DNA of 64,000 nt, from positions 62,001-126,000 of the forward strand of contig CAIQIK010000020.1 of NCBI GenBank assembly GCA_903871855.1, in the 5' to 3' direction. A program made the position numbers and the translations under genes. Shown here piece after piece: positions 17,311 through 35,802 of this stretch (position 1 is its first letter; each line of letters opens with the position of its first letter). Source of the stretch: an uncultured Caldisericota bacterium. Its GTDB lineage: Bacteria > Caldisericota > Caldisericia > Cryosericales > Cryosericaceae. The notes beneath the pieces were generated by a model. The model was not told the DNA's origin. It saw only the letters and a list, made by a program, of their open reading frames with translations, and ran no database searches.

Positions 17311-17386
17311 TCGTTCTGAGGACATGTTATTGGACTGGAGATGCGCACTCTCGTGCGTGGACGGCACTATGTCCGGGAGCCACTCC

Positions 17387-18019
17387 ATGAACCTCGTTGT
17401 GCTGGCGGGTGGGCAGAGCGAACGCATGGGCCACTGCTGCAAGCACCGAGACCTCCTCGCAGACATACCACTGTACAAACACGTTTTCCTTCACCTTGGC
17501 CCAATCTGTGACAGTGTCTTGGTCGTCGAGAACGCCGGGCGTGTCGACATGGAGTGCCGCGCTGGCATACGCGTCGTGCACGACCTGATCGCCGACGCCG
17601 GCCCCCTCGGCGGTATCTACTCGGGACTGGCCGCATCGGACTCCTGGTTGAACTTCGTCATTGCTGCCGACATGCCGTATGCATCTCGGCAGCTTGCAGC
17701 CGCCATGGAAGCATATGCGCTTCGGAACAAGTTCGACATTGTTTATCCAAACATCGACGGTTTGCTGGAACCACTCTTCGCCGTTTACTCGCAGCGTGTG
17801 GCTAGCGTGGCCCTCGCTGTGCTGAATGCTGGGCGCCGTTCGATCCGAGAGCTGTTCACAAGCGCGCAGTTGAGCGTTGGCGCTGTTGACAGGCAATTCG
17901 TCATGCGGTACGACCAGAAGCTGATGTCTTTCTTCAATGTGAACACACCCGACGACCTCATCATGGCAAGGCTGATGATGCCCGTGAGTGAAAAGTCTCT
18001 ACAGGAGGAACGTGTATGA
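17387..18019 (+). CDS. mobA: Molybdenum cofactor guanylyltransferase-like nucleotidyltransferase
   Basis: About 210 residues with the MobA start MNLVVLAGGQSERMG, the following Lys region (HCCKHRDLL), the conserved RVVHDLIADAGPLGGIYSGL and the metal motif AADMP. The final FFNVNTPDDL is the MobA C-terminal signature. It attaches GMP to molybdopterin to give the bis-MGD cofactor. The start is placed at ATG 17387; earlier in-frame ATGs exist at 17324 and 17369. The stop overlaps the hydrogenase-associated NuoE gene (ATGA). The xanthine-dehydrogenase-type enzyme downstream would normally use a cytosine or unmodified cofactor, so another Mo enzyme probably exists elsewhere. Confidence 0.85.
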   Translation: MNLVVLAGGQSERMGHCCKHRDLLADIPLYKHVFLHLGPICDSVLVVENAGRVDMECRAGIRVVHDLIADAGPLGGIYSGLAASDSWLNFVIAADMPYASRQLAAAMEAYALRNKFDIVYPNIDGLLEPLFAVYSQRVASVALAVLNAGRRSIRELFTSAQLSVGAVDRQFVMRYDQKLMSFFNVNTPDDLIMARLMMPVSEKSLQEERV

Positions 18020-18516
18020 GGATGAACCTGGAAGACCGTCTGAAAGAGAATCCCGAGCTAAAGAAGCAGTTTGATGCGCTCGACACGTACATTGGTAAGC
18101 TGGCAAGCCCGGAAGGCAGCCTCATCAATGTCCTGCACCGCGCCCAGGCGATCTTCGGGTATCTCCCGGATGAAGTACTCGAGTTCGTCTCCAGTAGACT
18201 GAACGTGCCGCGTTCTACCGTGTATGGTGTCGTCACCTTCTATCACTTCTTCTCGCGTGTTCCGAAGGGACGTCATACCGTCAGCGTGTGCCTTGGCACC
18301 GCCTGCTACGTGCGAGGCGGGAATGCAGTCTACGAGAAGGTTATGAAGATCCTGGGAGTCAAAGCCGGCGAGACCACTCAGGACGGCCGCTTCAGTCTGG
18401 ATCTTGTTCGTTGTGTGGGGGCTTGTGGTCTCGCCCCAGTCGTTGTCATCGACAAGGACACGTACGGGCGTTCCACGCCCGAGAAGGTTGCGACGTTGCT
18501 GAACAAGTACGCCTAA
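18016..18516 (+). CDS. hydC: NuoE-like [2Fe-2S] subunit of the [FeFe]-hydrogenase (HydC)
   Basis: 166 residues with the NuoE/HydC plan: a helical N-terminus (LINVLHRAQAIFGYLPDEVLEFVSSRLNV), VYGVVTFYHFFSRVPKG, and a thioredoxin-like domain with cluster cysteines VCLGTACYVRGG and RCVGACGLAPVVVI. It carries one [2Fe-2S] cluster between the flavoprotein subunit and the hydrogenase. It starts at ATG 18016 behind ACAGGAGG, overlapping mobA. The set 18016-22514 matches the HydABC composition of trimeric NAD-linked, ferredoxin-bifurcating [FeFe]-hydrogenases. Confidence 0.92.
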   Translation: MRMNLEDRLKENPELKKQFDALDTYIGKLASPEGSLINVLHRAQAIFGYLPDEVLEFVSSRLNVPRSTVYGVVTFYHFFSRVPKGRHTVSVCLGTACYVRGGNAVYEKVMKILGVKAGETTQDGRFSLDLVRCVGACGLAPVVVIDKDTYGRSTPEKVATLLNKYA

Positions 18517-18539
18517 CTTGGGACAATCGGGAGGAAACG

Positions 18540-18908
18540 ATGAAATCACTGGAAGAGCTGAAGCGCATCAAGGAACAGACCCTCAGGGAGATGGACCTTC
18601 GCCAGGCCAAGGAGAGAGGCAAGGTCGTCGTTGCGATGGGGACATGTGGCATTGCAGCTGGGGCGAAGGACGCTCTCATGGCCATCATCGACGAGCTCGA
18701 GAAGGCGGACATCCATGACGTCAAGGTAGTCCAGTCCGGCTGCATGGGACTTTGCGACAAGGAACCGACAGTCGAAGTGGCCATGAAGGGCCAGCCTGCC
18801 GTCATCTACGGCGACGTCAACGATACGAACGCGCGCAGGATTGTCCGCGAGCACGTCCAGGGTGGCAATGTCGTGGCTGATCTGGTCATCAAGCGGGAGA
18901 ACATCTAG
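18540..18908 (+). CDS. Thioredoxin-like [2Fe-2S]-domain protein of the hydrogenase operon (HydD-like)
   Basis: 122 residues with a helical N-terminus and a thioredoxin-like ferredoxin domain: VVAMGTCGIAAGAKDAL, then SGCMGLCDKEPTVEVAMKG. Only three of the four usual cysteines are present (one in the first motif, two in the second), so a canonical [2Fe-2S] site is uncertain. The start is ATG 18540 behind GGGAGGAAA. Small proteins of this kind occur between hydC and hydB in several bifurcating hydrogenase operons; their role is not settled. Confidence 0.8.
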   Translation: MKSLEELKRIKEQTLREMDLRQAKERGKVVVAMGTCGIAAGAKDALMAIIDELEKADIHDVKVVQSGCMGLCDKEPTVEVAMKGQPAVIYGDVNDTNARRIVREHVQGGNVVADLVIKRENI

Positions 18909-18932
18909 CTCAGGGGGAGAAGGGGAAACGCA

Positions 18933-20717
18933 ATGATACGAAATCAGCTGTTGGTCTGTGCAGGCGGTGCCTGCATCACGAGTGGCGAAAAGAGTGTCAA
19001 AGACGTTCTGGTCGACGAACTGAAGAAGAATGGTATCGAAGATGAGGTTCAGGTTATTGAGACCGGCTGCATGGGGGCGTGTGACCTGGGCCCGATCGTC
19101 GTCGTATATCCCGAGGGGACGTTCTACCAGAAGGTCACGGTCAAGAACGCAGGTCTTATAGTAAACGAGCATCTTGTGAAGGGTCGCACTGTCGGCGAGT
19201 TACTGTACACCGAGCCGACCAGTGAGATGAAGGCTCAGACCAGCGGTGATATCCCCTTCTATACGCGTCAGGTCAAGCGAGTCCTTCGCAATTGCGGTGT
19301 CATCGACCCTCTTTCTATCGAGGAGTATATCGCCCGGGATGGGTACTTCGCTCTTGGGAAGGCGCTGGAGATGACGCCGGACGATGTTATCCGCGTCCTT
19401 ACCGATTCGGGTCTGCGCGGCCGTGGCGGGGCTGGATTCCCGACCGGTCTCAAGTGGAAGGCTACCCGAGAAGCGAAGGGTTCCCCGAAATACGTGGTCT
19501 GCAATGGCGACGAGGGTGACCCAGGAGCGTTCATGGACCGCAGTGTGCTTGAGGGCGACCCGCATTCCATCATCGAGGCGATGGCCATCGCAGGATATGC
19601 GATCGGCGCGGAGAAGGGTTACATGTATGTCCGTGCTGAGTATCCGCTTGCCATTGAGCGATTCGAGTATGCGATCGGCAAGGCGCGCGAGTACGGGTTC
19701 CTCGGACGAGGTATTCTGGGCACTGGGTTCAATTTCGACATTGAGATCCGTATCGGTGCCGGGGCATTCGTTTGCGGCGAGGAGACTGCTCTCCTGCGGT
19801 CTATCGAGGGCAAACGAGGAACGCCGAGCATCAAGCCCCCGTTCCCTGCGCAGGCCGGGTTGTGGGCCAAACCGACGTTGATCAACAATGTCGAGACATA
19901 TGCCAATATTCCCCAGATTATTACAAACGGCGCGGAATGGTTCCGCAGCGTCGGGTCCGCCAAGAGCCCCGGCACGAAGGTGTTTGCTCTGGCGGGCAAC
20001 GTACAGAACACGGGCCTCGTCGAGGTTCCCATGGGAACGACGCTCAGGGAACTCGTGTTCGACATCGGAGGCGGCATCCCGGGAGGCAAGAAGTTCAAAG
20101 CGGCCCAGACCGGAGGTCCATCAGGCGGCGTCATCACCGCGGACTACCTGGACATGCCGATCGACTTCGACACGCTCAAGGAGATTGGAACCATCATGGG
20201 ATCCGGCGGACTCATCGTGCTTGACGAGAGCACCTGCATGGTTGACATTGCCAAGTTCTACCTTGGGTTCACGGTCGACGAGTCGTGCGGGAAGTGCACG
20301 CCGTGTCGCGAAGGGACTCTACAGATGTACCACATGATGGAACGGATTTGTGATGGCAAGGGTCGCGACGGCGACATCGAGAAGCTGAGCAAGCTGGCCA
20401 ACGTCATTAAGGATACGTCATTGTGCGGGCTTGGACAGTCGGCGCCAAATCCAGTCCTGTCGACAATCAGGTTCTACGAAGACGAGTACCGTGCTCACAT
20501 CTACGAAAAGAAGTGTCCGTCGCATGTGTGCAAGCACCTGCTGACGTACTCCATCATGCCCGAAAAGTGTGTTGGATGCACGGCATGCGCACGGCAATGT
20601 CCTGTCGACGCCATCACCGGTGAGGTCAAGAAGACTCACGTGATCGACCAGAGCAAATGCATCAAGTGTGGTTCCTGCTATGAAATTTGTCGTTTTAGTG
20701 CGATCCGCAAAGAGTAA
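18933..20717 (+). CDS. hydB: NuoF-like flavoprotein subunit of the [FeFe]-hydrogenase (HydB)
   Basis: 594 residues in four blocks. First, an N-terminal thioredoxin-like [2Fe-2S] domain (VCAGGACITSG, TGCMGACDLGP). Second, the FMN/NAD(H) core with GRGGAGFPTGLKW (about 162-174) and NGDEGDPGAFMDR. Third, a [4Fe-4S] module SCGKCTPCREGT with a distal Cys in DTSLCGLGQSAP. Fourth, a C-terminal 2[4Fe-4S] ferredoxin (CVGCTACARQCPVDAI, CIKCGSCYEIC). In HydABC enzymes this subunit binds NAD(H) and FMN and is the site where electrons split or join between NADH and ferredoxin. All cluster ligands are intact, in contrast to the second NuoF copy at 23573. Confidence 0.94.
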   Translation: MIRNQLLVCAGGACITSGEKSVKDVLVDELKKNGIEDEVQVIETGCMGACDLGPIVVVYPEGTFYQKVTVKNAGLIVNEHLVKGRTVGELLYTEPTSEMKAQTSGDIPFYTRQVKRVLRNCGVIDPLSIEEYIARDGYFALGKALEMTPDDVIRVLTDSGLRGRGGAGFPTGLKWKATREAKGSPKYVVCNGDEGDPGAFMDRSVLEGDPHSIIEAMAIAGYAIGAEKGYMYVRAEYPLAIERFEYAIGKAREYGFLGRGILGTGFNFDIEIRIGAGAFVCGEETALLRSIEGKRGTPSIKPPFPAQAGLWAKPTLINNVETYANIPQIITNGAEWFRSVGSAKSPGTKVFALAGNVQNTGLVEVPMGTTLRELVFDIGGGIPGGKKFKAAQTGGPSGGVITADYLDMPIDFDTLKEIGTIMGSGGLIVLDESTCMVDIAKFYLGFTVDESCGKCTPCREGTLQMYHMMERICDGKGRDGDIEKLSKLANVIKDTSLCGLGQSAPNPVLSTIRFYEDEYRAHIYEKKCPSHVCKHLLTYSIMPEKCVGCTACARQCPVDAITGEVKKTHVIDQSKCIKCGSCYEICRFSAIRKE

Positions 20718-20735
20718 TTGACCCGGAGGGACTTT

Positions 20736-22514
20736 ATGGAGACGAGAATGCTGAATGTGAAAATCAATGGACGGGATTACCAGGTGCCGGACGGAACGAC
20801 GATCTTGAAGGCTGCCAGGGAGTATGCAAAGATCGATGTGCCGACTCTCTGCTATCTTGAGGGAATCAGTGAGGAAGGCGCGTGCGCCATCTGCGTCGTC
20901 GAGGTAAAGGGCGCCCGCAACCTCCAGCGCGCATGTGTAGTTAAGGTCAGTGAGGGCATGGAGGTCTGGACCAATACTTCGCGCGTCCGCGAGGCCCGCA
21001 AGCTCAATGTCGAGTTGCTGTTGGCCAATCACCCAAAGGATTGCTTCACGTGCGAGAAGAGCCAGATCTGTGATCTTCGTGAGCTGGCGTCTGAGCTGGG
21101 GGTGCGGGAAGTGGAGTTTCCGCGAACCCGCACAGAGTTGCTGCCGTTTGACAACACATCGCTGTCGCTGGTGCGCGACCCCAACAAGTGCGTGCTTTGC
21201 AGGCGCTGTGTAAACGTGTGTGCCAAAGTGCAATCCGTCTATGCCATCGATATCGTGGGGCGCGGTTCGAACAGTACCGTCTCGACGTTCCTGGACGAGG
21301 GTCTGGGGAACGTAGAGTGTGTGAACTGTGGGCAGTGCCTGCTTGTTTGTCCGACTGGCGCCATCACCGAGCGGAGCGAGATTCCGGATGTATGGAAAGC
21401 GCTGGGAGACCCGGACAAGGTCGTGGTTGTCGAGACGGCTCCAGCAGTGCGCGTTGCCATCGGTGAAGAGTTTGGCATGCCTGATGGGACGCAGGCAACT
21501 GGCAAGATGGCCGCCGCTCTCCGGCGTCTCGGCTTTAACAAGGTCTTCGACACTGACTTCTCGGCCGACTTGACGATCATGGAGGAGGGATTCGAGCTCA
21601 TCGGGCGTATCAAGAACGGAGGCACTCTGCCGCTTATTACGTCCTGCTCACCAGGCTGGATCAAATTCGTGGAAACGTTCTTCCCAAAGGTGCTGGATCA
21701 CATTTCGACCTGCAAGTCGCCCCAGCAGATGTTTGGGACGGTAACAAAGACGTACTGGGCCGAGAAGATGGGGATCGACCCGAGGAAGATCGTTGTCGTG
21801 TCCACTATGCCGTGCACTGCCAAGAAATTCGAGAAGGAACGGCCGGAGATGAAGTCGGCGTTCCACTATTGGCAGGAGAAGCTGGGACTCAAGGACGAGG
21901 AGGCGTTCAAGGATGTCGACTGTGTCCTGACAACTCGCGAAGCTGCTCAGATGATCCGCGAAGCGGGCATCGACTTCGCAAACCTCCCTGACGAGGATTT
22001 CGACAAGCCGTTGGGCGAATCGACCGGCGCAGCTGTCATCTTCGGAGCTACGGGTGGCGTCATGGAAGCTGCGTTGCGGACCGCCTATGAAGTGCTCACC
22101 AAGAAATCACTGGCGAAGCTCGACTTCGAGGATGTGCGTGGACTCGAGGGCATCAAGAGTGCTGATGTCGACATTGATGGGACGACTCTGAAAGTCGCCG
22201 TCGCAAGCGGGCTGGGTAATGCACGCATCCTCATGGAGCAGGTGCAGAAGGGCGAGTCGCCCTATCACTTCATCGAGATCATGTGCTGCCCTGGTGGTTG
22301 TCTCGGCGGAGGTGGACAGCCGATTTCGGACAACCCCGACATCAAGAAGAAGCGTGCCGAGGCCATTTACCGAGAGGATGCGGGCAAGCCGATTCGCAAA
22401 TCACATGAGAACCCGGAGATTACGGAGATCTACAAGGATTTCCTGGGTGAGCCCAACAGCGAGAAGGCTCATCATTTGCTGCATACTGAGTACTGCGATC
22501 GCAGTTGTAAGTAG
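20736..22514 (+). CDS. hydA: [FeFe]-hydrogenase catalytic subunit (HydA), NADH/ferredoxin-linked group A type
   Basis: 592 residues. The N-terminal part is NuoG-like: a [2Fe-2S] domain (TLCY...GACAICVVEV...RAC), a His-Cys3 cluster (NHPKDCFTCEKSQIC) and two [4Fe-4S] clusters (CVLCRRCVNVC, CVNCGQCLLVCP). The H-cluster motifs are L1 TSCSPGW (about 301), L2 MPCTAKKFE (about 357) and L3 MCCPGGCLGGGGQP (about 515). L3 carries a Cys where most enzymes have Ala (MACPGGC). The C-terminus ends EYCDRSCK with extra cysteines. The start ATG 20736 lies behind GGAGGG. Reversible H2 production from NADH plus reduced ferredoxin is the expected role. Maturases HydEFG are not in the window. Confidence 0.95.
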   Translation: METRMLNVKINGRDYQVPDGTTILKAAREYAKIDVPTLCYLEGISEEGACAICVVEVKGARNLQRACVVKVSEGMEVWTNTSRVREARKLNVELLLANHPKDCFTCEKSQICDLRELASELGVREVEFPRTRTELLPFDNTSLSLVRDPNKCVLCRRCVNVCAKVQSVYAIDIVGRGSNSTVSTFLDEGLGNVECVNCGQCLLVCPTGAITERSEIPDVWKALGDPDKVVVVETAPAVRVAIGEEFGMPDGTQATGKMAAALRRLGFNKVFDTDFSADLTIMEEGFELIGRIKNGGTLPLITSCSPGWIKFVETFFPKVLDHISTCKSPQQMFGTVTKTYWAEKMGIDPRKIVVVSTMPCTAKKFEKERPEMKSAFHYWQEKLGLKDEEAFKDVDCVLTTREAAQMIREAGIDFANLPDEDFDKPLGESTGAAVIFGATGGVMEAALRTAYEVLTKKSLAKLDFEDVRGLEGIKSADVDIDGTTLKVAVASGLGNARILMEQVQKGESPYHFIEIMCCPGGCLGGGGQPISDNPDIKKKRAEAIYREDAGKPIRKSHENPEITEIYKDFLGEPNSEKAHHLLHTEYCDRSCK

Positions 22515-22527
22515 AACAGGAACACAA

Positions 22528-22555
22528 GGGGCGTCGACTTGCTGGTGGACGCCCC
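22528..22555 (+). terminator. GC-rich hairpin after hydA (weak terminator or processing site)
   Basis: GGGGCGTC (22528-22535) and GACGCCCC (22548-22555) form an 8-bp stem with a 12-base loop, just after the hydA stop. No T-run follows, so it may attenuate or protect the upstream RNA rather than terminate fully. Confidence 0.4.
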
Positions 22556-22588
22556 CAGGGCTCCTGAGGAACGAGGGGAGGTACGTCA

Positions 22589-22852
22589 ATGAACAGCGCA
22601 CAGCACGTTGGAGTCGTTGCAATCATCATCAGCAAGCGTGAGACGACAGCCCCGAAGGTGAACCAGATACTCACGAACCATGGAGACCTCATCATCGGAC
22701 GCTTGGGACTACCATATGGGGGCCATGGTCTTCATGTGATCTCACTCATCGTCGACGGCGAGAAGGAGCAGCTGCAGGGCCTGACTGCGGAGTTGACTGC
22801 AGTACCAGACACCATCGTCGAATCGACGATGAGCCCGGTCTGCCTCGGATAA
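22589..22852 (+). CDS. Iron-only hydrogenase system regulator, TM1266-type
   Basis: 87 residues with an ACT/NikR-C-like ferredoxin fold: HVGVVAIIISKRETTAPKVNQIL, HGDLIIGRLGLPYGGHGLHVISLIVDG and VPDTIVESTMSPV. The pattern GRLG-P-GG-G-HVI matches the small putative regulator family that accompanies [FeFe]-hydrogenase genes in Thermotoga and clostridia. A strong site GGGGAGGT precedes ATG 22589. Whether it binds DNA or a metal/ligand is not known from sequence; there is no separate DNA-binding domain. Confidence 0.8.
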   Translation: MNSAQHVGVVAIIISKRETTAPKVNQILTNHGDLIIGRLGLPYGGHGLHVISLIVDGEKEQLQGLTAELTAVPDTIVESTMSPVCLG

Positions 22853-22916
22853 GCTGCCAGCCGTCCACGTCGGGCAGGGAATGGAAAAGAGAGAGGTAGC
22901 AAGGGGTCTGTGAAAA

Positions 22917-22948
22917 ATCGTTTCAGCAAGGAATATACGCGAAACGAT
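22917..22948. promoter_or_regulatory. Inverted repeat upstream of the second NuoE/NuoF pair
   Basis: ATCGTTTC (22917-22924) and GAAACGAT (22941-22948) are perfect complements 16 bp apart. The adjacent stretch CTGTGAAA...GTTTCAG resembles an imperfect Rex-type operator (consensus TTGTGAAnnnnTTCACAA), and a Rex gene closes this gene block. Rex binding is a guess. Confidence 0.35.
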
Positions 22949-23042
22949 CGGCATTCGAGTAGTTTCCACAAAGTGCAGAACGCGGTCGGTTTCTTTGAGG
23001 GGAGCAGCAGTGCTCCGGAAAAAAACGATCAGGGAGGAAACC

Positions 23043-23576
23043 ATGGAGTTGGACAATGTCACTCGACCAGCGGGGCAGGCGCAGCCGCTGAGCGATGAAG
23101 ACAAGCGTTTTCTGCGCGAGCTGGTAGAGACAAATCGCATTGAGCATCACGGCCGGCTGTCCTACATGGACATCATGTTCGACCTTGAGCATCGCTACGG
23201 GAACTCCCTGCCGGGACCTGTGCTGGGCGAGGTCGCTCGACTAGTCGGGACCTCACCTGCGCAGCTGAATGGTTTCGTCACGTTCTACACGATGCTATCA
23301 ACAACTCCCCGCGGAAAGCACGTTATTCGTGTCTGCACGAGTGGTCCGTGCCACGTATCGGGTGCTCCGGCGATCCTGAGCAGCCTGAGGCAGTTGCTCG
23401 GTGTCGATATTGGTGAGACTACTCCGGACGGGATGTTTGCACTGGAGGCTTCCAGCTGTCTTGGGATCTGCGGAGTTTCCCCGACGCTCATGATCGATGA
23501 CGATGCGTACGGAAACCTCACGCCGGAAGACCTGCCACGAATTCTCAATGCGAAGCGCGCAGGAGGTACCCAGTGA
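23043..23576 (+). CDS. Second NuoE-like [2Fe-2S] subunit
   Basis: 177 residues with the same plan as HydC (helical N-terminus, VTFYTMLSTTPRGKHVIRV, then thioredoxin-like domain). All four cluster cysteines are kept: VCTSGPCHVSGA and SSCLGICGVSP. It is clearly divergent from the first copy, so it is an old paralogue rather than a recent duplication. The start ATG 23043 follows AGGGAGGAAA; upstream in-frame codons are rejected. The last codon overlaps the NuoF-like gene (GTGA). Its partner at 23573 lacks several clusters, so the pair may form a NADH-oxidising module for a different acceptor or a sensor. Confidence 0.9.
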   Translation: MELDNVTRPAGQAQPLSDEDKRFLRELVETNRIEHHGRLSYMDIMFDLEHRYGNSLPGPVLGEVARLVGTSPAQLNGFVTFYTMLSTTPRGKHVIRVCTSGPCHVSGAPAILSSLRQLLGVDIGETTPDGMFALEASSCLGICGVSPTLMIDDDAYGNLTPEDLPRILNAKRAGGTQ

Positions 23577-25180
23577 AGCTTTTCTCAACTCAAATCATCG
23601 TTCCTGTTGACTCCAACTCAGTCCTTCAGGGGGCTCTCGAGATAAGGCACGTCCTCGAAGAGACCATTGCCAAGTTCAACCTGGGCAGCCAGGTCTCGGT
23701 CGTCGAGACGGGTTCTCTGGGCATCTATGACAGAGGGGTCGTTCTTGCTGTCTTTCCCGACGACGTCTATTACGGCAACGTCATACCTTCAGACGTTGAG
23801 GAGATCGTCACGGAGCATCTCCTGAAGGGACGTGTGGTCTCGCGCCTCGCTATTGACCGCTCTCTCTCGTTCAAGCGGCTGGTCGAGAAAGAGTCGGGGA
23901 AGAGTCAGCAGAAGATCGTCCTGCGCAACGCGGGCCTCATCGACCCGGAGAATATCGACGAGTACATTGCTCGCGACGGCTACGGGGCTCTTGCAAAGGC
24001 TCTTGCGATGCAGCCCGGCGAGGTCATCCAGATCCTTACCGACAGCAAGCTCCAAGGGCGCGGGGGCGCGGGGTTCCCTACCGGCTTGAAGTGGGCGATG
24101 GTTGCGAAGGAGCAGAGCGAAGAGAAGTACATCGTGTGCAACGCCGACGAAGGTGAACCCGGTACCTTCAAAGACCGCCTCATTCTTGAGGGAGATCCGC
24201 ACAGTATCGTCGAAGCCATGACCATTGCCGGCTACGCTACCGGGGCTCACGTTGGTATCGCCTATGTCCGCGGCGAGTACTTCATGTCGATAGCACGCCT
24301 CAAGAAGGCTATCAAGGACGCCCAGGCTTATGGTCTCTTGGGCGACGACATTCTGGGGACCGGATTCAAGTTCGACATCGAGGTCTATCGCGGCGGCGGC
24401 GCCTACGTCTGTGGTGAGGAGTTCGCCCTGCTCGAGTCTATCGAGAACCGGCGAGGAGAGCCACGGAACAAGCCTCCGTTTCCACCTCAGCAGGGGCTTT
24501 TCAGCAAACCCACGGTCGTCAACAACGTAGAGACCTTTGCAAACGTACCATCGATTCTGTTGAACGGCAGCGATTGGTTCAAGTCATTTGGCACACCATC
24601 GAGTGCGGGTACCAAAGTGTTCTCGCTGTCGGGTGATATCGTGAACCGCGGTATCGTGGAGGTGCCATTCGGGGTGACCTTGCGCGAGCTGATCTATGAC
24701 TTTGGCGGCGGGGTCAAGGGAGGCAAACACATCGGGTTTATCCAGACCGGTGGAAGCGCTGGTACTGTGCTTAATGATAAGTACCTGGACATTCCATTGG
24801 ACTTCGCGTCTATGAAAGCCTACAACGTTTCGATCGGGTCGGGTGTCGTTCTCGTTGCCGCGAGCGATGTGCCACTCCTTCCGTTTCTTGCGGAAGTGGC
24901 ACACTTTTTCTGGCATGAGTCGTGTGGCAAATGCACTCCATGCCGTGAGGGAACACTCCAGGTCAAGGCCATCATGGATGCGCTCGTCAACCGGACGGCG
25001 GACCCCGCTTCCTTGCAACGCCTCGGCGTGCTGCTAAACTTGCTGAGCGATACGTCGTTCTGCGGGCTGGGACAGGCTGCTCCGCTCGCGTTTGAATCAG
25101 CCTTGCGCAATTTCCAAAGCGAATTTGACACGGCGCTGGCCGAGTCGCACGTGCCTGAGACCTGTCAGGAAGAAACGTAG
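23573..25180 (+). CDS. Second NuoF-like flavoprotein with degenerate N-terminal domain and no ferredoxin tail
   Basis: 535 residues, GTG start behind AGGAGGT, overlapping the NuoE-like gene. The FMN/NAD core (GRGGAGFPTGLKW, NADEGEPGTFKDR) and the SCGKCTPCREGT [4Fe-4S] module with TSFCGLGQ are intact. The N-terminal thioredoxin-like domain keeps its fold pattern (VVETGSLGIYDRGVVLAVFPDDVYYGNVIPSDVEEI) but every [2Fe-2S] cysteine is replaced. The C-terminal 2[4Fe-4S] ferredoxin of HydB is absent. The NADH site should still work, with electrons leaving through its own [4Fe-4S] cluster and the NuoE partner. No hydrogenase subunit follows; signalling genes do. Confidence 0.9.
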   Translation: MKLFSTQIIVPVDSNSVLQGALEIRHVLEETIAKFNLGSQVSVVETGSLGIYDRGVVLAVFPDDVYYGNVIPSDVEEIVTEHLLKGRVVSRLAIDRSLSFKRLVEKESGKSQQKIVLRNAGLIDPENIDEYIARDGYGALAKALAMQPGEVIQILTDSKLQGRGGAGFPTGLKWAMVAKEQSEEKYIVCNADEGEPGTFKDRLILEGDPHSIVEAMTIAGYATGAHVGIAYVRGEYFMSIARLKKAIKDAQAYGLLGDDILGTGFKFDIEVYRGGGAYVCGEEFALLESIENRRGEPRNKPPFPPQQGLFSKPTVVNNVETFANVPSILLNGSDWFKSFGTPSSAGTKVFSLSGDIVNRGIVEVPFGVTLRELIYDFGGGVKGGKHIGFIQTGGSAGTVLNDKYLDIPLDFASMKAYNVSIGSGVVLVAASDVPLLPFLAEVAHFFWHESCGKCTPCREGTLQVKAIMDALVNRTADPASLQRLGVLLNLLSDTSFCGLGQAAPLAFESALRNFQSEFDTALAESHVPETCQEET

Positions 25181-25210: not shown

Positions 25211-25549
25211 TTGAAACTGACCGAGGTTCTTGAGATTACCGGTGCAATGTGTATCGTCGGTGAACAACTGGCGAGTATCGAGGTGAACTACGCGTTTGCT
25301 TCGGACCTCATGAGTGATGTGCTTGCCATGAGTCGTCCCGATACGTTGCTGATCACCGGGCTGACTACTCCTCAGATTATTCGAACGGCACAAATGCTTG
25401 ACCTGCCGGCCATTCTCGTAGCAAGAGGCAAGGATGTGCCTCAGGATGTCGTCGATTTGGCGCGCACGACGGGCATTGTCCTTTTGTCGACACACGACAT
25501 CATGTACGTGGCGTCTGGGAAGCTGTATGCCCGAGGCCTCTCTGGATAG
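25211..25549 (+). CDS. DRTGG-domain protein (first copy)
   Basis: 112 residues from a TTG start with GGAGAGGAG upstream. The sequence KLTEVLEITGAMCIVGEQ...EVNYAFASDLMSDVLAMSRPDTLLITGLTTPQIIRTAQMLDLPAILVARGK resembles the DRTGG/HPr-kinase-N-like domain seen as stand-alone proteins next to [FeFe]-hydrogenase genes. It is a paralogue of the protein at 26491: both share the SDLMSxV / CDLLSEV helix and end in SGKLY-x-x-GL. A nucleotide- or ligand-binding role is assumed for the family; nothing catalytic is visible. Confidence 0.7.
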   Translation: MKLTEVLEITGAMCIVGEQLASIEVNYAFASDLMSDVLAMSRPDTLLITGLTTPQIIRTAQMLDLPAILVARGKDVPQDVVDLARTTGIVLLSTHDIMYVASGKLYARGLSG

Positions 25550-25552
25550 TAG

Positions 25553-26482
25553 ATGTCTCTTGAGCAGAGTGTAGAAGCGCTGCGGTATCTGGGGCTGTTC
25601 AGCAGTCTGGACGCTTCCAGTATTATGTCTACTGCCGTGCATGCCCTTCATCCTGAGGATCGCGTTGCTGCAGCCCGCCTTCTCATGCGGGAAAAGTCGA
25701 TTTCCGGCGTGCCCATCGTCGATGCCGACTTCCGGTTGGTGGGGCTCGTTTCGGTGTCGAAGATCATCGAGGCGCTTGCTGATGGGCGTCTGGCGGACCC
25801 TGTCGACTCGGTGATGACTCGCGATGTAATCTCCCTGCATGCTCATGACTCCTTTGAGACGATCCTGTCCTGTTTCCAGCGCTTCAAGTTCGGGCGTTTC
25901 CCGGTGGTCGAAGACGATGGCAGGCTGGTTGGTATGATTACGGACACCGACGTTCTGTCGGCGATCATTCGCAGCTTCTACTCGGTGTATATCCACGACC
26001 AGAGGCGCGCGGTCACTCTCGGTAGTTTCTCAGCTCTCTCGAAGGAGTTCGAGAGCAGTGCAGACTTCGTCTATGACATACGTTGTAGGGGACTTGAGAA
26101 TGCTGGTGAAGGCTCGGCTCAGCTCAAAGCGTTCCTCCAGAACAAGGGTTTCGGAGAACCCATTGTTCGACGGGCCAGTGTCTGCGCCTACGAAGCGGAG
26201 ATAAACGTTTGTATCCATGCGGGCGGACATGGCTCACTCCGAGCCATTGCTCGCAATGGAGAGATCATCCTGCGCGTGGAAGACGAGGGACCCGGAATCG
26301 AAAACATCGATCTTGCGATGAAGGAAGGCTGGTCTACCGCGACTGATGCAATCAGGGAACTGGGGTTTGGTGCGGGCATGGGCCTGCCGAACATCCGCCG
26401 GTTTTCCGACCACCTCGTGATTATCTCGGGCAAAGACAAACCCACTAAGGTTGAGATGATCTTCCTGGAAGGCAAGGAATAG
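25553..26482 (+). CDS. CBS-pair protein fused to an RsbW-like HATPase domain
   Basis: 309 residues. Residues 20-140 form two CBS motifs (MREKSISGVPIVDADFRLVGLVSVSKI and FKFGRFPVVEDDGRLVGMITDTDVL), which usually bind adenine nucleotides. The C-terminal ~140 residues form a GHKL ATPase of the anti-sigma/serine-kinase type: N-box-like YEAEINVCIHAGGHGSLRA, G1 VEDEGPGIENIDLAM and G2 GFGAGMGLPNIRRFSD. The usual Asn of the N box appears as NVCIHA. No His-phosphorylation domain is present, so this is likely an energy-sensing protein kinase or switch. It lies four bases after the first DRTGG gene. Confidence 0.82.
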   Translation: MSLEQSVEALRYLGLFSSLDASSIMSTAVHALHPEDRVAAARLLMREKSISGVPIVDADFRLVGLVSVSKIIEALADGRLADPVDSVMTRDVISLHAHDSFETILSCFQRFKFGRFPVVEDDGRLVGMITDTDVLSAIIRSFYSVYIHDQRRAVTLGSFSALSKEFESSADFVYDIRCRGLENAGEGSAQLKAFLQNKGFGEPIVRRASVCAYEAEINVCIHAGGHGSLRAIARNGEIILRVEDEGPGIENIDLAMKEGWSTATDAIRELGFGAGMGLPNIRRFSDHLVIISGKDKPTKVEMIFLEGKE

Positions 26483-26490
26483 GAGGCACC

Positions 26491-26823
26491 ATGACAGTCC
26501 ATGACGTCATCGAGTCACTGGGTGCAGACGTCGCGGTCAAGGGTGACACTACGAGACTGGTAACGTCAGGATACGCCTGCGACCTGCTCTCTGAGGTCAT
26601 CGCCAAGGCTGCCCCTGGGTCGGCCTGGGCGACTATCCAGACACACGTCAATGTCATCGCCGTCGCAGCGATGGTCGGCATCAGTGTCGTTATCGTGTGT
26701 GAGGGGCGAACCTGTGAGTCCGACGTGCTTGAGCACGCCACAAAGGAACACCTGACGGTCCTTTATTCCAGGGATTCGGCATATACCGTTTCCGGGAAGC
26801 TGTACCTTCTTGGCCTGAGGTAG
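26491..26823 (+). CDS. DRTGG-domain protein (second copy)
   Basis: 110 residues; ATG 26491 behind ATAGGAGG. Paralogue of the 25211 protein, with TVHDVIESLGADVAVKGD, GYACDLLSEVIAKAAPGSAWATIQTHVNVIAVAAMVGISVVIVCEG and the shared ending SGKLYLLGLR. The two copies flank the CBS-ATPase gene, so they may act as its partners or form a heteromer. No known catalytic residues. Confidence 0.7.
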   Translation: MTVHDVIESLGADVAVKGDTTRLVTSGYACDLLSEVIAKAAPGSAWATIQTHVNVIAVAAMVGISVVIVCEGRTCESDVLEHATKEHLTVLYSRDSAYTVSGKLYLLGLR

Positions 26824-26826
26824 CTT

Positions 26827-27558
26827 GTGCTGGAGGTCCCCGGTGACCTGCACCTGCATTCGTGTCTGTCGCCGTGTGCGGATATCACGATGCTGCCGGG
26901 CGAGGTGGCGGAGCGGCTCGTCGCACGGGGGATACGTGTCGCTTCTCTGACTGACCACAATGCGGCGTGCAACGTGTCTGCGTTTCAGCGGGTATTTCGC
27001 CAGAACGGGATCTTGCTTGTGCCAGGGATAGAAGCTACCACTGCGGAGGAAGTCCACCTGCTCTGCTACTTCGAGACGATCTATGCCCTCTGGGAATTCA
27101 GTCGCAGACTACTGGCATCATATCCGCGCATCGCCAACGATCCCGAACGTTTCGGCTATCAGCTGGTCTGCAATGAACGGGACGAGTTTGTAGGTCAGTT
27201 TCCCTTTCTGCTTTCGGTGGCCAGTCTGCTGAGTCTTGAGGAACTGAGAGGGCTTGTCGAACGATTGGATGGTGTCGTCGTGCCGAGTCATTTGGACCGT
27301 CGTTACGGGCTTCTCTATCAGTTGGGAGTAGTGACGCCGGAGATGGAATTCCGCACCTATGAAATCGCCCACAAGGTGAACATCGAGAGCATCGCGTCGA
27401 AGCTACCTGGTCATCCGCAGTTCGTCTCGAACAGCGATGCTCACAACCTTGATTCCATCAGCCCTCCCAGGTACGTCTTCGAGATCGAGGAATTGACTGT
27501 TCATGAAGTACTGACGGCTCTTCGGCACGAAAAAGGAAGAGGCATAAGGCTGCTATGA
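26827..27558 (+). CDS. PHP-domain metal-dependent phosphoesterase
   Basis: 243 residues from GTG 26827, three bases after the DRTGG stop. All PHP metal ligands are present: DLHLHSCLSPC, SLTDHNA, PGIEATTAEEVHLLCYF, VVPSHLDRR and SNSDAHNLDS. The family hydrolyses phosphoesters such as histidinol phosphate, nucleotides or oligoribonucleotides; stand-alone copies beside hydrogenase signalling genes have no proven substrate. The end overlaps the HATPase gene (ATGA). It could act on a nucleotide signal made or sensed by the neighbouring CBS/HATPase proteins, which is speculation. Confidence 0.85.
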   Translation: MLEVPGDLHLHSCLSPCADITMLPGEVAERLVARGIRVASLTDHNAACNVSAFQRVFRQNGILLVPGIEATTAEEVHLLCYFETIYALWEFSRRLLASYPRIANDPERFGYQLVCNERDEFVGQFPFLLSVASLLSLEELRGLVERLDGVVVPSHLDRRYGLLYQLGVVTPEMEFRTYEIAHKVNIESIASKLPGHPQFVSNSDAHNLDSISPPRYVFEIEELTVHEVLTALRHEKGRGIRLL

Positions 27559-28136
27559 GGACGATAGCGGACCATGTTCTGGACATTGCTTCCAACAGTG
27601 TGACGGCAGGAGCCACTCATATATGGCTCGATATCGATCATCACCCCGCTGACCACCTGTTTGTCTTTACCGTTCGGGACAACGGGTGCGGGATAGATGC
27701 CGATAAGCACACACGTGTGTTTGATCCGTTCTTCACCACACGGCCGCACAACATCAGGAGGTTCGGCCTTGGATTGCCGTTCCTGAAGGAAAACACAGAG
27801 TTGACTGGCGGAGGGGTCGATCTATGGAGTATTCCGGGTGAGGGAACAACACTCAAGGCAACCTTTCACACAGACCACATTGACTGTCTACCACTTGGAG
27901 ACTTGGCATCGACCTTGTTCGCATTGCTCACCTCTGACCCAGCAGTAGTATGGCATATCCGCCGTGCAGAGGGAAGCCTGGCATATACTGTTGATACTGA
28001 GGAACTGCGGACAGTTTTCTCGCCGGAAGAGATGTCTGACCCTCAAGCGCAGTTGCTGCTTCTGAAGTTCCTGCGCGAGCAGGAGCGCGATGTGGCTCAA
28101 GGCAGCGGTGGTGTACCCGGGCAGGACGGGATGTGA
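27555..28136 (+). CDS. Stand-alone histidine-kinase-like ATPase (HATPase_c) protein
   Basis: 193 residues beginning directly with a GHKL ATPase: N box HVLDIASNSVTAGATHIWLD, G1 VRDNGCGIDADKHTRVFDPFFTT, G2 RFGLGLPFLKE and G3-like GEGTTLKATF. There is no dimerisation/phosphoacceptor helix, and the remaining ~80 residues are not recognisable. It overlaps the PHP gene and the Rex gene, so all are co-translated. It could phosphorylate a partner in trans or act as an ATP-dependent switch. Confidence 0.85.
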   Translation: MRTIADHVLDIASNSVTAGATHIWLDIDHHPADHLFVFTVRDNGCGIDADKHTRVFDPFFTTRPHNIRRFGLGLPFLKENTELTGGGVDLWSIPGEGTTLKATFHTDHIDCLPLGDLASTLFALLTSDPAVVWHIRRAEGSLAYTVDTEELRTVFSPEEMSDPQAQLLLLKFLREQERDVAQGSGGVPGQDGM

Positions 28137-28147
28137 GGGCGCTGGTG

Positions 28148-28840
28148 ATGACAAACTACAGATTAGATGATATATCGAAGGCAACTATTTCGCGCATGGC
28201 CACGTATCTGCGGTGTCTCACATACCTTGAGCAGCAGGGTACGTCGACACTTTCGTCGCGGGAGTTGGCATCGCTGACCGGGGTGAGCGCTGAACAGGTG
28301 AGACAAGATTTGTCGGTTTTTGGTCGATTTGGAAAGCGTGGCACGGGGTATGATGTTGTTGGACTGAAGACCGAAGTCGAAACCATCTTCGGGCGTGGGG
28401 TCGAGCGGTGGAAGTGCTGTATCGTGGGCGTAGGATCACTGGGCACAGCACTCATTGCCAGTCGCATGGTTCAGAAGTGGGGATTCAGGTACGTTGCAGC
28501 GTTCGATACGGATCCACGCAAGATCGGAACGCACGTGGAGCGTGTACCGGTACATTCTGTTGATGAGCTGAAGACTATTGTGCGCCGCGAGCACATCGCC
28601 ATCGGAGTCATCGCCGTTCCCGCGTCCGGCGCCCGAACAGTCGCCCGAATCCTCTGCGAGGCGGGCATTCGAGGCATCCTCAACTTCGCTCCGCAGAGTA
28701 TCAAGGTGCCGGAGAACGTTCCAGTGATCTCGGCGGATATCTCACAGGAGTTCCTCAAGCTTTCGTTTTATATCCAGGTTGCAGAGCAGCGGGCGCGCGA
28801 GGAGCAAGCCCAGATCGATGCCGTGTCGCACAGCGAGTAG
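28148..28840 (+). CDS. rex: Redox-sensing transcriptional repressor Rex
   Basis: About 230 residues. N-terminal winged helix: ISRMATYLRCLTYLEQQG, SSRELASLTGVSAEQVRQDLSVFGRFGKRGTGYDV. The Rossmann domain binds NADH/NAD: CCIVGVGSLGTALIAS, then VAAFDTDPRKIG, VIAVPASGAR and the family's GILNFAPQSIKVPENV. Rex derepresses fermentative genes when NADH is high, so its place at the end of the hydrogenase/NuoEF block suggests it regulates them. Start is ATG 28148 or GTG 28133, the latter overlapping the HATPase stop. Confidence 0.94.
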   Translation: MTNYRLDDISKATISRMATYLRCLTYLEQQGTSTLSSRELASLTGVSAEQVRQDLSVFGRFGKRGTGYDVVGLKTEVETIFGRGVERWKCCIVGVGSLGTALIASRMVQKWGFRYVAAFDTDPRKIGTHVERVPVHSVDELKTIVRREHIAIGVIAVPASGARTVARILCEAGIRGILNFAPQSIKVPENVPVISADISQEFLKLSFYIQVAEQRAREEQAQIDAVSHSE

Positions 28841-29145
28841 CAGCGCTTCTAGAGCACTACTCGTTCGGGGTGCACGTAGACACTCATGCGCCTGGCTTGC
28901 ACCAATACTACGACGGTGGTCTTGACTCTTTTCGCAAGAACAACAGACTGAGCAGTCATAGCACTCCTCAAGTCCAGACGGTCGTCATCACCGCTTGTCA
29001 CTTCCCAAGGCTAAATCCAGCTTAGGTAGGTTGCCGTTGGATGTGAAAGGCCAGCGTGGGCTCCGAGCCTGCTTGGATGTTGCATTTGCCGACTTACGAA
29101 GGTATTATGAATGTGAGTTATAGCGTTGTTTGCAAGGAGGCCCTC
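28841..29145 (+). other. Intergenic region before the molybdenum hydroxylase operon
   Basis: 305 bp without a supported gene. It contains the promoter listed at 29080; the first 240 bp show no RNA gene or terminator I can recognise. Confidence 0.5.
29080..29108 (+). promoter_or_regulatory. Sigma-70 promoter of the molybdenum hydroxylase operon
   Basis: TTGCAT (29080-29085), 17 bp, TATTAT (29103-29108); the start codon follows at 29146 behind AAGGAGG. Confidence 0.6.
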
Positions 29146-29979
29146 ATGGGCAGAATCACCCAGTACTATCATGCAGCATCTCTGGAGGATGCGTTTGCCA
29201 AAGCGAAGCAGTTGGGCCCTGTCGCTGCGTACATTGGCGGTGGTGTGGAGTTGGTCCTTCGCAGGAACCCGGAGATCACGACCCTGATCGATCTGTCGCG
29301 ATGTGGTCTCGATTACATTGCAGCAACCCGGGACGGGATCGAGATCGGTTCTCAGACCACACTCACGACGATCAGCCGCAGCGCAGACATCAGGCAGTAC
29401 GCCGGGGGTTCGCTTGCCTACTGGACTGGCCGTATCGCTCACAACAACCTGCGGAACATGATCACTGTCGGTGGAGTCATTGGGCGCAACCAGCCGTGGA
29501 ACGACGTCGTTCCCCATCTTGTTGCCCTGGGTGCACAGGTGCGGCTGTTTGACGGTGCTGAGCGCATCATGCCTCTCTCGGGCTACATCGAAGCGAAGCA
29601 GCCGGGGGTGATCATCAAGGGGGTCCTGTTGCCTGCAGAGAATGCTGGTTCGAAGGGATTCCTGTGGCGGTTCACACGCACCTGGCAGGACATCTCAACG
29701 CTGCACTTCTCAGCGCTTGTCAGCTGTGACGGAAAGGTCATGACGGCGGTCAAGCTGGTCTTCGCCGGGCGTCCGGGCCATGCCACCCTCTACCCCAGAC
29801 TGTCTGAAGAACTTGTCGGAAAGTCGTTGTCGCATGAGACGTTCGCGAGAGTGGCGGAGATGGCTCCTGACCTCGTCGAGGTCGGCACTGACCTTCGTGC
29901 GACAGGCGAGTTCCGGCGTGAGCTGGTGCGGGCGGCTATCCTCAACCTGGAAGAGTACATGACAGGGGTGGCGCAATGA
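29146..29979 (+). CDS. Molybdenum hydroxylase FAD-binding subunit (XdhB/CoxM-like)
   Basis: 277 residues with the FAD-binding PCMH pattern: an N-terminal YYHAASLEDAFAKAKQLG, AYIGGGVELVLRRN (FAD pyrophosphate loop, normally GGT-L), TLIDLSRCGLDYI, IEIGSQTTLTTI, NNLRNMITVGGVIGRNQPWNDV and a CODH FAD C-terminal domain. It moves electrons from the iron-sulfur subunit to an acceptor. The start at ATG 29146 is set by AAGGAGG. The small iron-sulfur subunit overlaps by ATGA, giving the order M-S-L seen in many such enzymes. Confidence 0.88.
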   Translation: MGRITQYYHAASLEDAFAKAKQLGPVAAYIGGGVELVLRRNPEITTLIDLSRCGLDYIAATRDGIEIGSQTTLTTISRSADIRQYAGGSLAYWTGRIAHNNLRNMITVGGVIGRNQPWNDVVPHLVALGAQVRLFDGAERIMPLSGYIEAKQPGVIIKGVLLPAENAGSKGFLWRFTRTWQDISTLHFSALVSCDGKVMTAVKLVFAGRPGHATLYPRLSEELVGKSLSHETFARVAEMAPDLVEVGTDLRATGEFRRELVRAAILNLEEYMTGVAQ

Positions 29980-30449
29980 CTATCCTGGTAACGGTGAATA
30001 CTGTTGAACACTTCTTTGATGTTCAACCTGACGAGGTCCTGCTGGATGTCCTGCGGCGAGAGGGCTACCTCGAGGTAAAGGGTAGCTGTCACACAGGAGA
30101 CTGCGGCGCGTGCACCGTCCTGCTGGACGGGCGCCCTGTCGCTTCCTGCCTGACACTGGCTGCCAAAGCCGACGGACACACTGTGACGACTGTACGCGGT
30201 ATAGGGGATCAGGCTCACCCTCACGCTATCCAGGACGCATTTGTGAAGAACGGCGCCGTTCAGTGCGGATACTGCGTGCCTGGTGCCATCACATCTGCCA
30301 AAGCGCTGCTGGACGAGAACCCTGATCCCACGGAAGAGGAGATTCGGTTGGCGATGGACAGCAACTACTGTCGATGCACTGGCTACGAACAGCAGGTTGA
30401 GGCTGTCCTCGATGCCGCCGCGCAGCTTCGGAAGGGGGACAGGAAATGA
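29976..30449 (+). CDS. Molybdenum hydroxylase [2Fe-2S] subunit (XdhC/CoxS-like)
   Basis: 157 residues with both clusters complete. The plant-type [2Fe-2S] site is GSCHTGDCGACTVLLDG...ASC, and the second helical site is CGYCVPGAI...NYCRCTGYEQ. Both are standard for the xanthine dehydrogenase/CO dehydrogenase superfamily. Overlaps its neighbours on both sides by four bases, so the three subunits are translationally coupled. Confidence 0.94.
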   Translation: MTILVTVNTVEHFFDVQPDEVLLDVLRREGYLEVKGSCHTGDCGACTVLLDGRPVASCLTLAAKADGHTVTTVRGIGDQAHPHAIQDAFVKNGAVQCGYCVPGAITSAKALLDENPDPTEEEIRLAMDSNYCRCTGYEQQVEAVLDAAAQLRKGDRK

Positions 30450-34868: not shown

Positions 34869-35798
34869 TCAGCCATTATTGTCGTTGGCGAGTTCGGAGA
34901 TCCACGTTTGAGATACTGGGTCCCAATACGCGTCTTCAGCGCGTTCTTGGCAGATAGGATCAAGAAACCGGATGATGGCATGCATGACATCAATAAAATC
35001 CTTCGGGGCGACAAGGCCAGTGCGAGCAAGCCAAGCTTGCCATGCGTGTTGACGATCAATTGAAGATGAGAAGGTATCATCGAAGATAGTCACTCGGCGA
35101 GACAGAGACGTGCCGCGGTATCCGAATGTAGAATTCACAGCGAACTGAAGGGGGGCTATCAAGAAACTCTTGTGCTGTGCGAGGTACCACACATCATAGA
35201 AGTCTTTGTGTCGGGAATTGTTTAACCCGAGGTGCACCATGGCCTCGAATTTTTCGGAGACCGCATAGTCCAGAGAGTAGACGCGCATGCGAGGCGCTGG
35301 GATATCGCCAAGCAGAACGGGAAAATCGATCATCTCGTCGGTGTGGAAGGAACTGCCAAAGGCGATGTCTACGGAGACGGGCAAAACTGCAACACCAAGA
35401 CGTCCCGTTATCTTGAGTCTGGCCCCCACATGCTCGGCATCCGCCCTGATTGGACTGTTACTAACACTATCTCCGTCAAATAGGACTCCGTCTTCGGGGC
35501 AGGGCAGAGCTGCCACCCGAGCCAATGCTGTCGCTATCTCATCGGGTCGGTTGGCAAGTTCGTATCCCAGGAAGTCAATATCAACGGTGGCTCTCGGTGC
35601 CGGCAGTCCATAGGCAACCAGGAGTAAGCCTCCTTTGAGGTACAAACGCTCGCCGAGTTCCGACTGTGCAATCCGGAACAGGAGACGCTCCTGGAAGTAG
35701 CGTCTCAGAAGAGCGTTGTAGTTTTCTCCGTGAGAACGTGCGACGTTCAGAAGTCTGTCCCGGATGGATTCCGGGATGTTGAGTAGGGCTTTCCGCAT
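34869..35798 (-). CDS. AbiEii-type nucleotidyltransferase toxin
   Basis: 309 residues. It contains the DUF1814/AbiEii pattern: LYLKGGLLLVAYGLPAPRATVDIDFLGYE (the nucleotidyltransferase metal Asp pair in T-DIDF), PVSVDIAFG, then YAVSEKFEAMVHLGLNNSRHKDFYDVWYLA, which is the second family signature. In AbiE type IV systems this protein is the GTP-binding nucleotidyltransferase toxin that can arrest growth and block phages. It is preceded by its antitoxin gene with a four-base gap. All core residues look intact. Confidence 0.9.
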   Translation of the reverse strand: MRKALLNIPESIRDRLLNVARSHGENYNALLRRYFQERLLFRIAQSELGERLYLKGGLLLVAYGLPAPRATVDIDFLGYELANRPDEIATALARVAALPCPEDGVLFDGDSVSNSPIRADAEHVGARLKITGRLGVAVLPVSVDIAFGSSFHTDEMIDFPVLLGDIPAPRMRVYSLDYAVSEKFEAMVHLGLNNSRHKDFYDVWYLAQHKSFLIAPLQFAVNSTFGYRGTSLSRRVTIFDDTFSSSIDRQHAWQAWLARTGLVAPKDFIDVMHAIIRFLDPICQERAEDAYWDPVSQTWISELANDNNG

Positions 35799-35802
35799 GT
35801 CG

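Follow-up and report, generated by a model that had tools for sequence, protein, structure and literature searches.

The bifurcating enzymes of the HydABC-like Bfu family occur with varied catalytic partners (PMC9304861), and their operons can include a gene for a histidine-kinase-like ATP-binding protein that stands outside the holoenzyme. In Acetobacterium woodii this protein, HydE (Awo_c27000), is absent from the active enzyme, and a possible role 'in assembly or signalling' has been suggested for it (PMC3315566); the hisK product of Acetomicrobium mobile is likewise not in the holoenzyme, and the main text of that account makes no mention of DRTGG, PHP or kinase, its operon figure showing hisK (PMC9304861). 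Here we describe a block of five genes at positions 25211–28136 of a stretch of 64,000 nucleotides (hereafter, the window) from an uncultured Caldisericota bacterium, in which a gene of the HydE/HisK type (HATPase2) is accompanied by genes for two DRTGG proteins, an RsbW/SpoIIAB-like ATPase fused to a CBS pair, and a predicted PHP-family metal phosphoesterase. The block is a member of a conserved module, distinct from the Bfu subunits themselves, that we are confident is linked to the NADH:ferredoxin core of these enzymes.

Three further described systems resemble parts of the module. With the anti-sigma kinases RsbW and SpoIIAB the module ATPase shares its fold, its ATP motifs and a small partner gene upstream; it differs in its CBS fusion, its DRTGG neighbours and a genome without STAS or SpoIIE proteins. 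The CBS-DRTGG-CBS unit of family II pyrophosphatase responds to AMP, ADP, ATP and Ap4A, with AMP inhibiting and Ap4A activating (PMC10742508); the module also has DRTGG beside a CBS pair, but on separate proteins and with an ATPase as the effector. Finally, an Fe-S protein encoded by the module in most other lineages resembles the group C sensory [FeFe]-hydrogenase HydS in its 2[4Fe-4S], Fe_hyd_lg_C and C-terminal 4Fe-4S regions, and differs from it in that no PAS domain is present in the module Fe-S proteins examined. In the window's genus, 15 genomes were searched and none has this Fe-S protein.

Organization and conservation of the module

The five open reading frames (ORFs) lie on the forward strand and are tightly packed, with gaps of 3, 8 and 3 bases across DRTGG1, CBS-ATPase, DRTGG2 and PHP and a 4-base overlap between PHP and HATPase2 (27555–27558). 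An earlier sequence-only reading had described five linked genes at this place, the last two with start-stop overlaps, and all five are there; the extent that it gave ends short of rex, which overlaps HATPase2 by 4 bases (28133–28136) and, from its position, is part of the same transcript. Upstream of the block lies a group-A6 bifurcating [FeFe]-hydrogenase operon (18016–25180), identified as NADH-dependent by a HydA above the NF040763 cut-off together with HydB and HydC.

The CBS-ATPase is full length in nine of 12 sampled congeners, with 81–93% identity, and the neighbouring genes are in unchanged order on those congener contigs that were read. Other families of this class have the module genes interleaved with a hyd-type operon, the order in genomes G013 and G018 being DRTGG1-ATPase-[Fe-S protein]-DRTGG2-PHP-HydC-HATPase2-Fd-HydB-NuoE-NuoF (Fd, ferredoxin). 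When GTDB genomes were searched with an ATPase-domain profile, at least 587 stretches matched, among them 557 confirmed relatives; the best 80 of the matches listed are spread over about 20 phyla. Profiles built in this analysis were used to annotate 124 loci. Similarity of the ATPase was the sole ground for including 80 of them; about a dozen were drawn from samples of Chloroflexota and Aerophobetes, 12 were taken from Bacillota for having no nearby HydA and 10 for their long ORFs, and the remainder are relatives of the window.

A DRTGG gene is directly upstream of the ATPase, or fused to it, in 115 of the 124 loci, and a second DRTGG follows downstream in 94, PHP being present in 92 and HATPase2 in 87. 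Fusions join DRTGG1 to the ATPase in six loci, the ATPase to DRTGG2 in four (all from the window's class), PHP to HATPase2 in three, the Fe-S protein to DRTGG2 in one and a CBS pair to the ATPase in 22. Because of these natural fusions, the parts of the module plausibly act together. A reduced trio of DRTGG, ATPase and Fe-S protein, with no second DRTGG, PHP, HATPase2 or HydB, stands alone in loci L037, L054, L063, L066, L072, L080, L081 and L084, mostly from Bacteroidales and rumen bacteria. No paper describing the module was found in the open literature, to which the search extended.

Linkage to NADH:ferredoxin enzymes

For 74 loci the flanking sequence reaches 7 kb or more on each side (full-flank loci); of these, 56 encode HydB/BfuB, seven an Rnf operon, and 61 one or the other. 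The partner of this core is an [FeFe]-hydrogenase HydA in the window and in many Bacillota and Bacteroidota, and elsewhere a formate-dehydrogenase-like molybdopterin protein (L016, L048 and L104 from Pfam; L011 from length and N-terminus), a [NiFe]-hydrogenase (L142 from Pfam; L106, L137, L139 and L141 from HoxY/HoxH motifs), an HdrA-like flavoprotein (L020 and L082 from Pfam; L014, L026 and L032 from C-terminal sequence) or Rnf (L104, L109, L152, L157 and L162). Because the catalytic partner varies while HydB/BfuB or Rnf recurs, the module tracks NADH:ferredoxin coupling and not hydrogenase as such.

In the Bacillota sample (200 genomes drawn evenly from the phylum of G096), group-A6 HydA is encoded in 67 of the 73 genomes that carry the ATPase versus 68 of the 127 that do not (Fisher p 7e-9, the genomes not being independent). 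The sequence-only reading had likened the gene order to clusters beside [FeFe]-hydrogenases and had looked to co-occurrence with HydA as its check; the co-occurrence is borne out, and the link as then drawn proves too narrow. A hydrogenase-specific reading was rejected, since the module is also found beside genes for formate dehydrogenase, [NiFe]-hydrogenase, HdrA-like proteins and Rnf. Several Bacillota ATPase genes that do not lie within 12 kb of a listed HydA adjoin HydB with other partners, or Rnf.

Within the window's genus the same HydB (83–89% identity) and ferredoxin (82–87%) serve HydA in some strains and FdhA in others, which suggests, from the sequences compared, that the catalytic subunit is exchanged. 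Comparison of window positions 17177–22514 with L108, L110, L113 and L114 reveals a HydC-Fd-HydB core followed, by strain, by HydA or an FdhA-like protein, and MobA-like and formate-channel-like genes stand near both versions. In three Bacillota loci (L152, L157 and L162) the module directly adjoins the rnf operon. In Clostridium aceticum, rnf has been reported to adjoin a gene resembling those for histidine kinases, and the bifurcating formate dehydrogenase one resembling those for HPr kinases (PMC7911925).

The RsbW-like ATPase and its DRTGG neighbours

Profile searches place the ATPase nearest to RsbW and SpoIIAB, the latter being its closest solved relative (1.6e-13), and the model of the CBS-ATPase matches SpoIIAB structure 1til. 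The N, G1 and G2 boxes for ATP binding are intact and conserved across the relatives. No STAS domain (PF01740) was found in 15 genomes, including that of the window, nor in any of the nine congeners searched, and no SpoIIE/PP2C phosphatase (PF07228) in the window's own genome (94.8% complete), the latter being present in two of 15 genomes searched; the positive controls were matched in these searches. Because STAS protein and SpoIIE phosphatase are both missing from the genome, classical RsbW partner switching is unlikely here. The expectation that an RsbW-type ATPase phosphorylates its partners holds for this locus as homology only: the usual STAS partner of such a kinase is absent.

Both DRTGG proteins score slightly under the PF07085 gathering score of 25.2 bits (Table 1), and these weak calls are supported because a profile of 26 relatives finds the regulatory region of CBS-DRTGG pyrophosphatase (3l2b/3l31) at 2e-5. 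The DRTGG1 family pattern DLMSDVL...TGL.N.Q..RTAE...RGK is conserved in 97 loci, and DRTGG2 of the window aligns with DRTGG2 of other phyla. Serine and threonine residues within the strongly conserved motifs DL[ML]SDV and TG(L) are candidate phosphosites.

Genes for SpoIIAA and RsbV stand directly before those for SpoIIAB and RsbW, and DRTGG1 occupies the gene position that these STAS partners hold. By this analogy, and with STAS and SpoIIE proteins absent from the genome, the DRTGG proteins are the best candidates for partners of the ATPase, a pairing we favour by a narrow measure; that the ATPase phosphorylates them is a more tentative proposal, for which we would give less than even chances. 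The module is not classed here as a member of the RsbW/SpoIIAB partner-switching systems, although its way of working may be alike.

Candidate sensor inputs

The CBS-ATPase consists of a CBS pair at about residues 20–140, formed by two CBS motifs according to Pfam and the AlphaFold model, a long helix (residues 131–169) and the ATPase domain at about residues 172–305. The model (predicted local distance difference test, pLDDT, 86.7; predicted template modelling score, pTM, 0.51) has two compact domains, which this helix joins and whose mutual orientation is uncertain. It matches CBS proteins solved with AMP, ADP, ATP or Ap4A (AcuB, CBSX2 and MgtE), the CBS fold itself matching AcuB with AMP/Ap4A and CBSX2 with AMP, and the second motif, CBS2, retains the ribose-binding T-x-x-D (MITDTD). 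Because of these structural matches, the CBS2 motif and the likeness of the DRTGG proteins to the pyrophosphatase unit, sensing of an adenylate or Ap4A is our leading guess for the function of the pair.

The ATPase gene is followed in most loci by one for the degenerate HydS-like protein instead. This protein has 410–470 amino acids and combines a pair of [4Fe-4S] motifs with a degenerate hydrogenase domain (PF02906, 91 bits; Fe_hyd_lg_C) and a C-terminal PF04060 Fe-S motif. The cysteines of motifs L1 (x-C-P), L2 and L3 are kept in nearly all rows of the alignment, and the residue immediately before the L1 Cys-Pro is mostly Ala or Ser. Sensory HydS proteins have a similar change before the L1 cysteine. 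The CBS-ATPase fusion occurs in Chloroflexota, Aerophobetes and some Bacillota as well as in the window's genus, and among 201 sampled Chloroflexota genomes it is present in 10 of the 11 that carry the ATPase. The Fe-S protein is missing in 21 of 22 CBS-type loci versus 11 of 102 other loci, a pattern suggestive of the two being swapped sensor inputs. Strict exclusivity, which had held for 17 of 17 CBS loci at first, was rejected when L162 broke it, and only a tendency is left. Free trees require three to four changes for the CBS fusion, and the approximately unbiased (AU) test does not reject a single clade (p 0.525).

PHP and HATPase2

All metal-ligand motifs of the PHP protein (HxH, DHN, GxE, EEVH, SH and SDAH) are intact and are invariant in 20 homologues; the protein passes the PF02811 threshold of 26.4 bits (Table 1). 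Its relatives include EndoQ, RNase AM and the putative phosphoesterase 3e0f, and its substrate may be a phosphoprotein, a nucleotide or a nucleic acid.

HATPase2 comprises a GHKL domain and an unusual small C-terminal domain, with no DHp domain; in the model (pLDDT 89.3) the C-terminal domain is unlike the DHp helical hairpin. The closest sequences are the catalytic domains of KinB and ZraS. The gene is often inside the structural operon, for example as HydC-HATPase2-Fd-HydB, and homologues hold the HydC-X-HydD-HydB position in many loci. As a histidine-kinase-like ATPase without DHp that is encoded with HydABC, HATPase2 corresponds by position and type to HydE of A. woodii and hisK of A. mobile. 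It differs from these in that the window gene follows PHP and is not between hydC and hydD, and the portions consulted of the accounts of HydE and hisK (PMC3315566, PMC9304861) mention no DRTGG, RsbW or PHP partners.

Proposed working and alternative explanations

Our proposal is that the block, as a conserved module, conveys energy or redox signals to enzymes coupling NADH and ferredoxin. In this scheme the RsbW/SpoIIAB-type ATPase would be controlled by an input domain, which for the window would be the CBS pair, with AMP, ADP, ATP or Ap4A as ligand, and for most other lineages the degenerate HydS-like Fe-S protein. The ATPase would bind and probably phosphorylate the DRTGG proteins, above all DRTGG1, and the DRTGG state, together with PHP acting as phosphatase and the HydE-like ATPase, would set the activity or assembly of the adjoining NADH:ferredoxin enzyme. 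What the sequences themselves establish is the gene content and its conserved order, the fusions, the intact ATP and metal sites, the linkage to the NADH:ferredoxin core and the lack of STAS and SpoIIE proteins in the genome; the ligand, the phosphorylation, the direction of control and the target are what we infer, and the proposal as a whole, mechanism included, appears to us about evenly poised.

Several observations weigh against it. The linkage is incomplete, with neither BfuB nor Rnf in 13 of the 74 full-flank loci and only 34 of 74 ATPase genes in the Bacillota sample within 12 kb of a listed HydA. Because rex alone among these genes encodes a DNA-binding domain, no transcriptional route is visible. 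The idea that the CBS pair binds adenylates, already put forward in the sequence-only reading, remains plausible from fold and motif and is weakened by loss of the CBS1 ribose Asp in the window's genus (VSVSK, where other phyla have [SC]-x-E-D), so that, judging from these motifs, one canonical site may be left there. One Bacillota locus, L162, carries both the CBS fusion and the Fe-S protein, and the roughly four changes of CBS state on the tree are not enough to give significance in a kinship-corrected test of replacement of one input by the other. Cleavage of nucleotides by PHP, also put forward in the sequence-only reading, is a conjecture, and PHP is absent from ten loci that retain the other parts beside HydB, some of them on incomplete contigs.

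The main rival is an assembly or maturation chaperone, in which the two GHKL ATPases and DRTGG scaffolds would drive the loading or assembly of the multi-cluster HydABC/Bfu complex with ATP; clusters would be donated or checked by the Fe-S protein, and the CBS pair would gate the process by energy charge. The position of HydE and hisK outside their enzymes and the wording of the A. woodii account fit such a role, as do the interleaving of the HATPase2 gene with structural genes and the placement by Foldseek of MutL/PMS2 GHKL domains alongside histidine kinases. Sequence profiles, however, bring the ATPases nearer to SpoIIAB/RsbW and histidine kinases than to Hsp90, MutL being a weaker match, and the module is not generally required for assembly because only about half of the HydA-carrying Bacillota genomes (67 of 135) have it. 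We consider the chaperone explanation unlikely though not negligible, and lean towards a signalling function over it with modest confidence.

Transcriptional control of the anti-sigma kind, with the RsbW-like protein binding a sigma factor and DRTGG1 replacing STAS as anti-anti-sigma factor, would agree with the closeness to SpoIIAB and the partner gene upstream; it is improbable in a genome lacking STAS and SpoIIE, no sigma factor gene was seen in the block, and HydE and PHP would be left unexplained. Still less probable is a two-component system or phosphorelay in which HATPase2 would serve a histidine kinase or response regulator as a catalytic domain on a separate protein. The resemblance to KinB and ZraS, and the response regulators that flank the module in L041, L044 and L153, would suit this, but the block is without DHp or receiver domain and the C-terminal domain of HATPase2 does not resemble a DHp hairpin. 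Chance hitchhiking of unrelated genes beside hyd genes, to which the 13 unlinked full-flank loci might point, is strongly disfavoured given that order and linkage persist over about 20 phyla and several catalytic partners. As an observation on the loci themselves, L041 and L044 (Nitrospirota) and L153 (Bacillota) have large histidine kinases as well as response regulators at the flanks of the module.

Genomic setting of the block

The features of the operon and block are collected in Table 1; the host assembly comprises 1.84 Mb in 50 contigs. Two consensus scans for a Rex operator, upstream of hydC and within the block, gave no match above chance, promoters and terminators within the block were not in excess over shuffled sequence, and the search for RNA elements found none. 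After rex, three molybdenum hydroxylase genes (CoxM/S/L-like, of the xanthine dehydrogenase family, by eye) lie at 29056–32875; a formate dehydrogenase-like cluster is at their place in congeners L107, L108 and L110. Further along, a gene pair resembling the AbiEii nucleotidyltransferase and AbiEi regulator of toxin-antitoxin type (34869–36423, by eye) and a dCTP deaminase-like gene with an apparent in-frame intein-like insertion ending near SSNCWEG (46029–47819, translation by eye) were noted.

Table 1. Genes of the hydrogenase operon, the module and rex in the window
Feature	Position	Strand	Details
HydC/BfuC (NuoE-like), hyd operon gene 1	18016..18516	+	ORF and profile matches of relatives
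HydD-like 2Fe-2S ferredoxin-fold protein	18546..18908	+	82–87% identity in congeners
HydB/BfuB bifurcating diaphorase, C-terminal 2x[4Fe-4S]	18933..20717	+	Complex1_51K, NADH_4Fe-4S, Fer4
HydA, [FeFe]-hydrogenase group A6	20718..22514	+	NF040763 891 bits (cut-off 765)
TM1266-family hydrogenase-system regulator	22589..22852	+	TIGR03959 73.8 bits
NuoE2, second 2Fe-2S thioredoxin-like subunit	22995..23576	+	PF01257 129 bits
NuoF2, second diaphorase subunit without C-terminal Fer4	23573..25180	+	Pfam/NCBIfam
DRTGG1 protein	25211..25549	+	112 aa, TTG start; PF07085 25.0 bits
CBS pair and RsbW/SpoIIAB-like ATPase fusion	25553..26482	+	309 aa; CBS 99 bits (two copies), HATPase_c_2 33 bits
DRTGG2 protein	26491..26823	+	110 aa; PF07085 21.7 bits, sub-threshold
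PHP-family metal phosphoesterase (predicted)	26827..27558	+	243 aa; PF02811 28.7 bits
HATPase2, GHKL ATPase, HydE/HisK-like	27555..28136	+	193 aa; HATPase_c 60 bits
Rex redox-sensing repressor (NADH/NAD+)	28133..28840	+	235 aa; NCBIfam Rex 238 bits

Significance

Whether an anaerobe produces H2, formate, acetate or ethanol is decided by its NADH:ferredoxin enzymes, and, Rex apart, their control is poorly known. The analysis ties the HydE/HisK gene, unexplained in these operons since at least 2012, to a module of five parts that probably receives an energy or redox input. We file this STAS-less RsbW-like module, with its candidate DRTGG partners and probably exchangeable inputs, as a variant of GHKL-kinase signalling. 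A bolder interpretation, which we regard as rather doubtful at present, is that of an undescribed signalling class in about 20 bacterial phyla, whose RsbW-type kinases would use DRTGG instead of STAS, with interchangeable Fe-S/H2 or CBS adenylate inputs and direct control of Bfu complexes and Rnf; if true, it would explain the long-orphan HydE/HisK gene. As the module stays with the NADH:ferredoxin core while the catalytic partner varies, it is genetically testable in acetogens and thermophiles, and an RsbW kinase working without STAS would extend a textbook signalling family.

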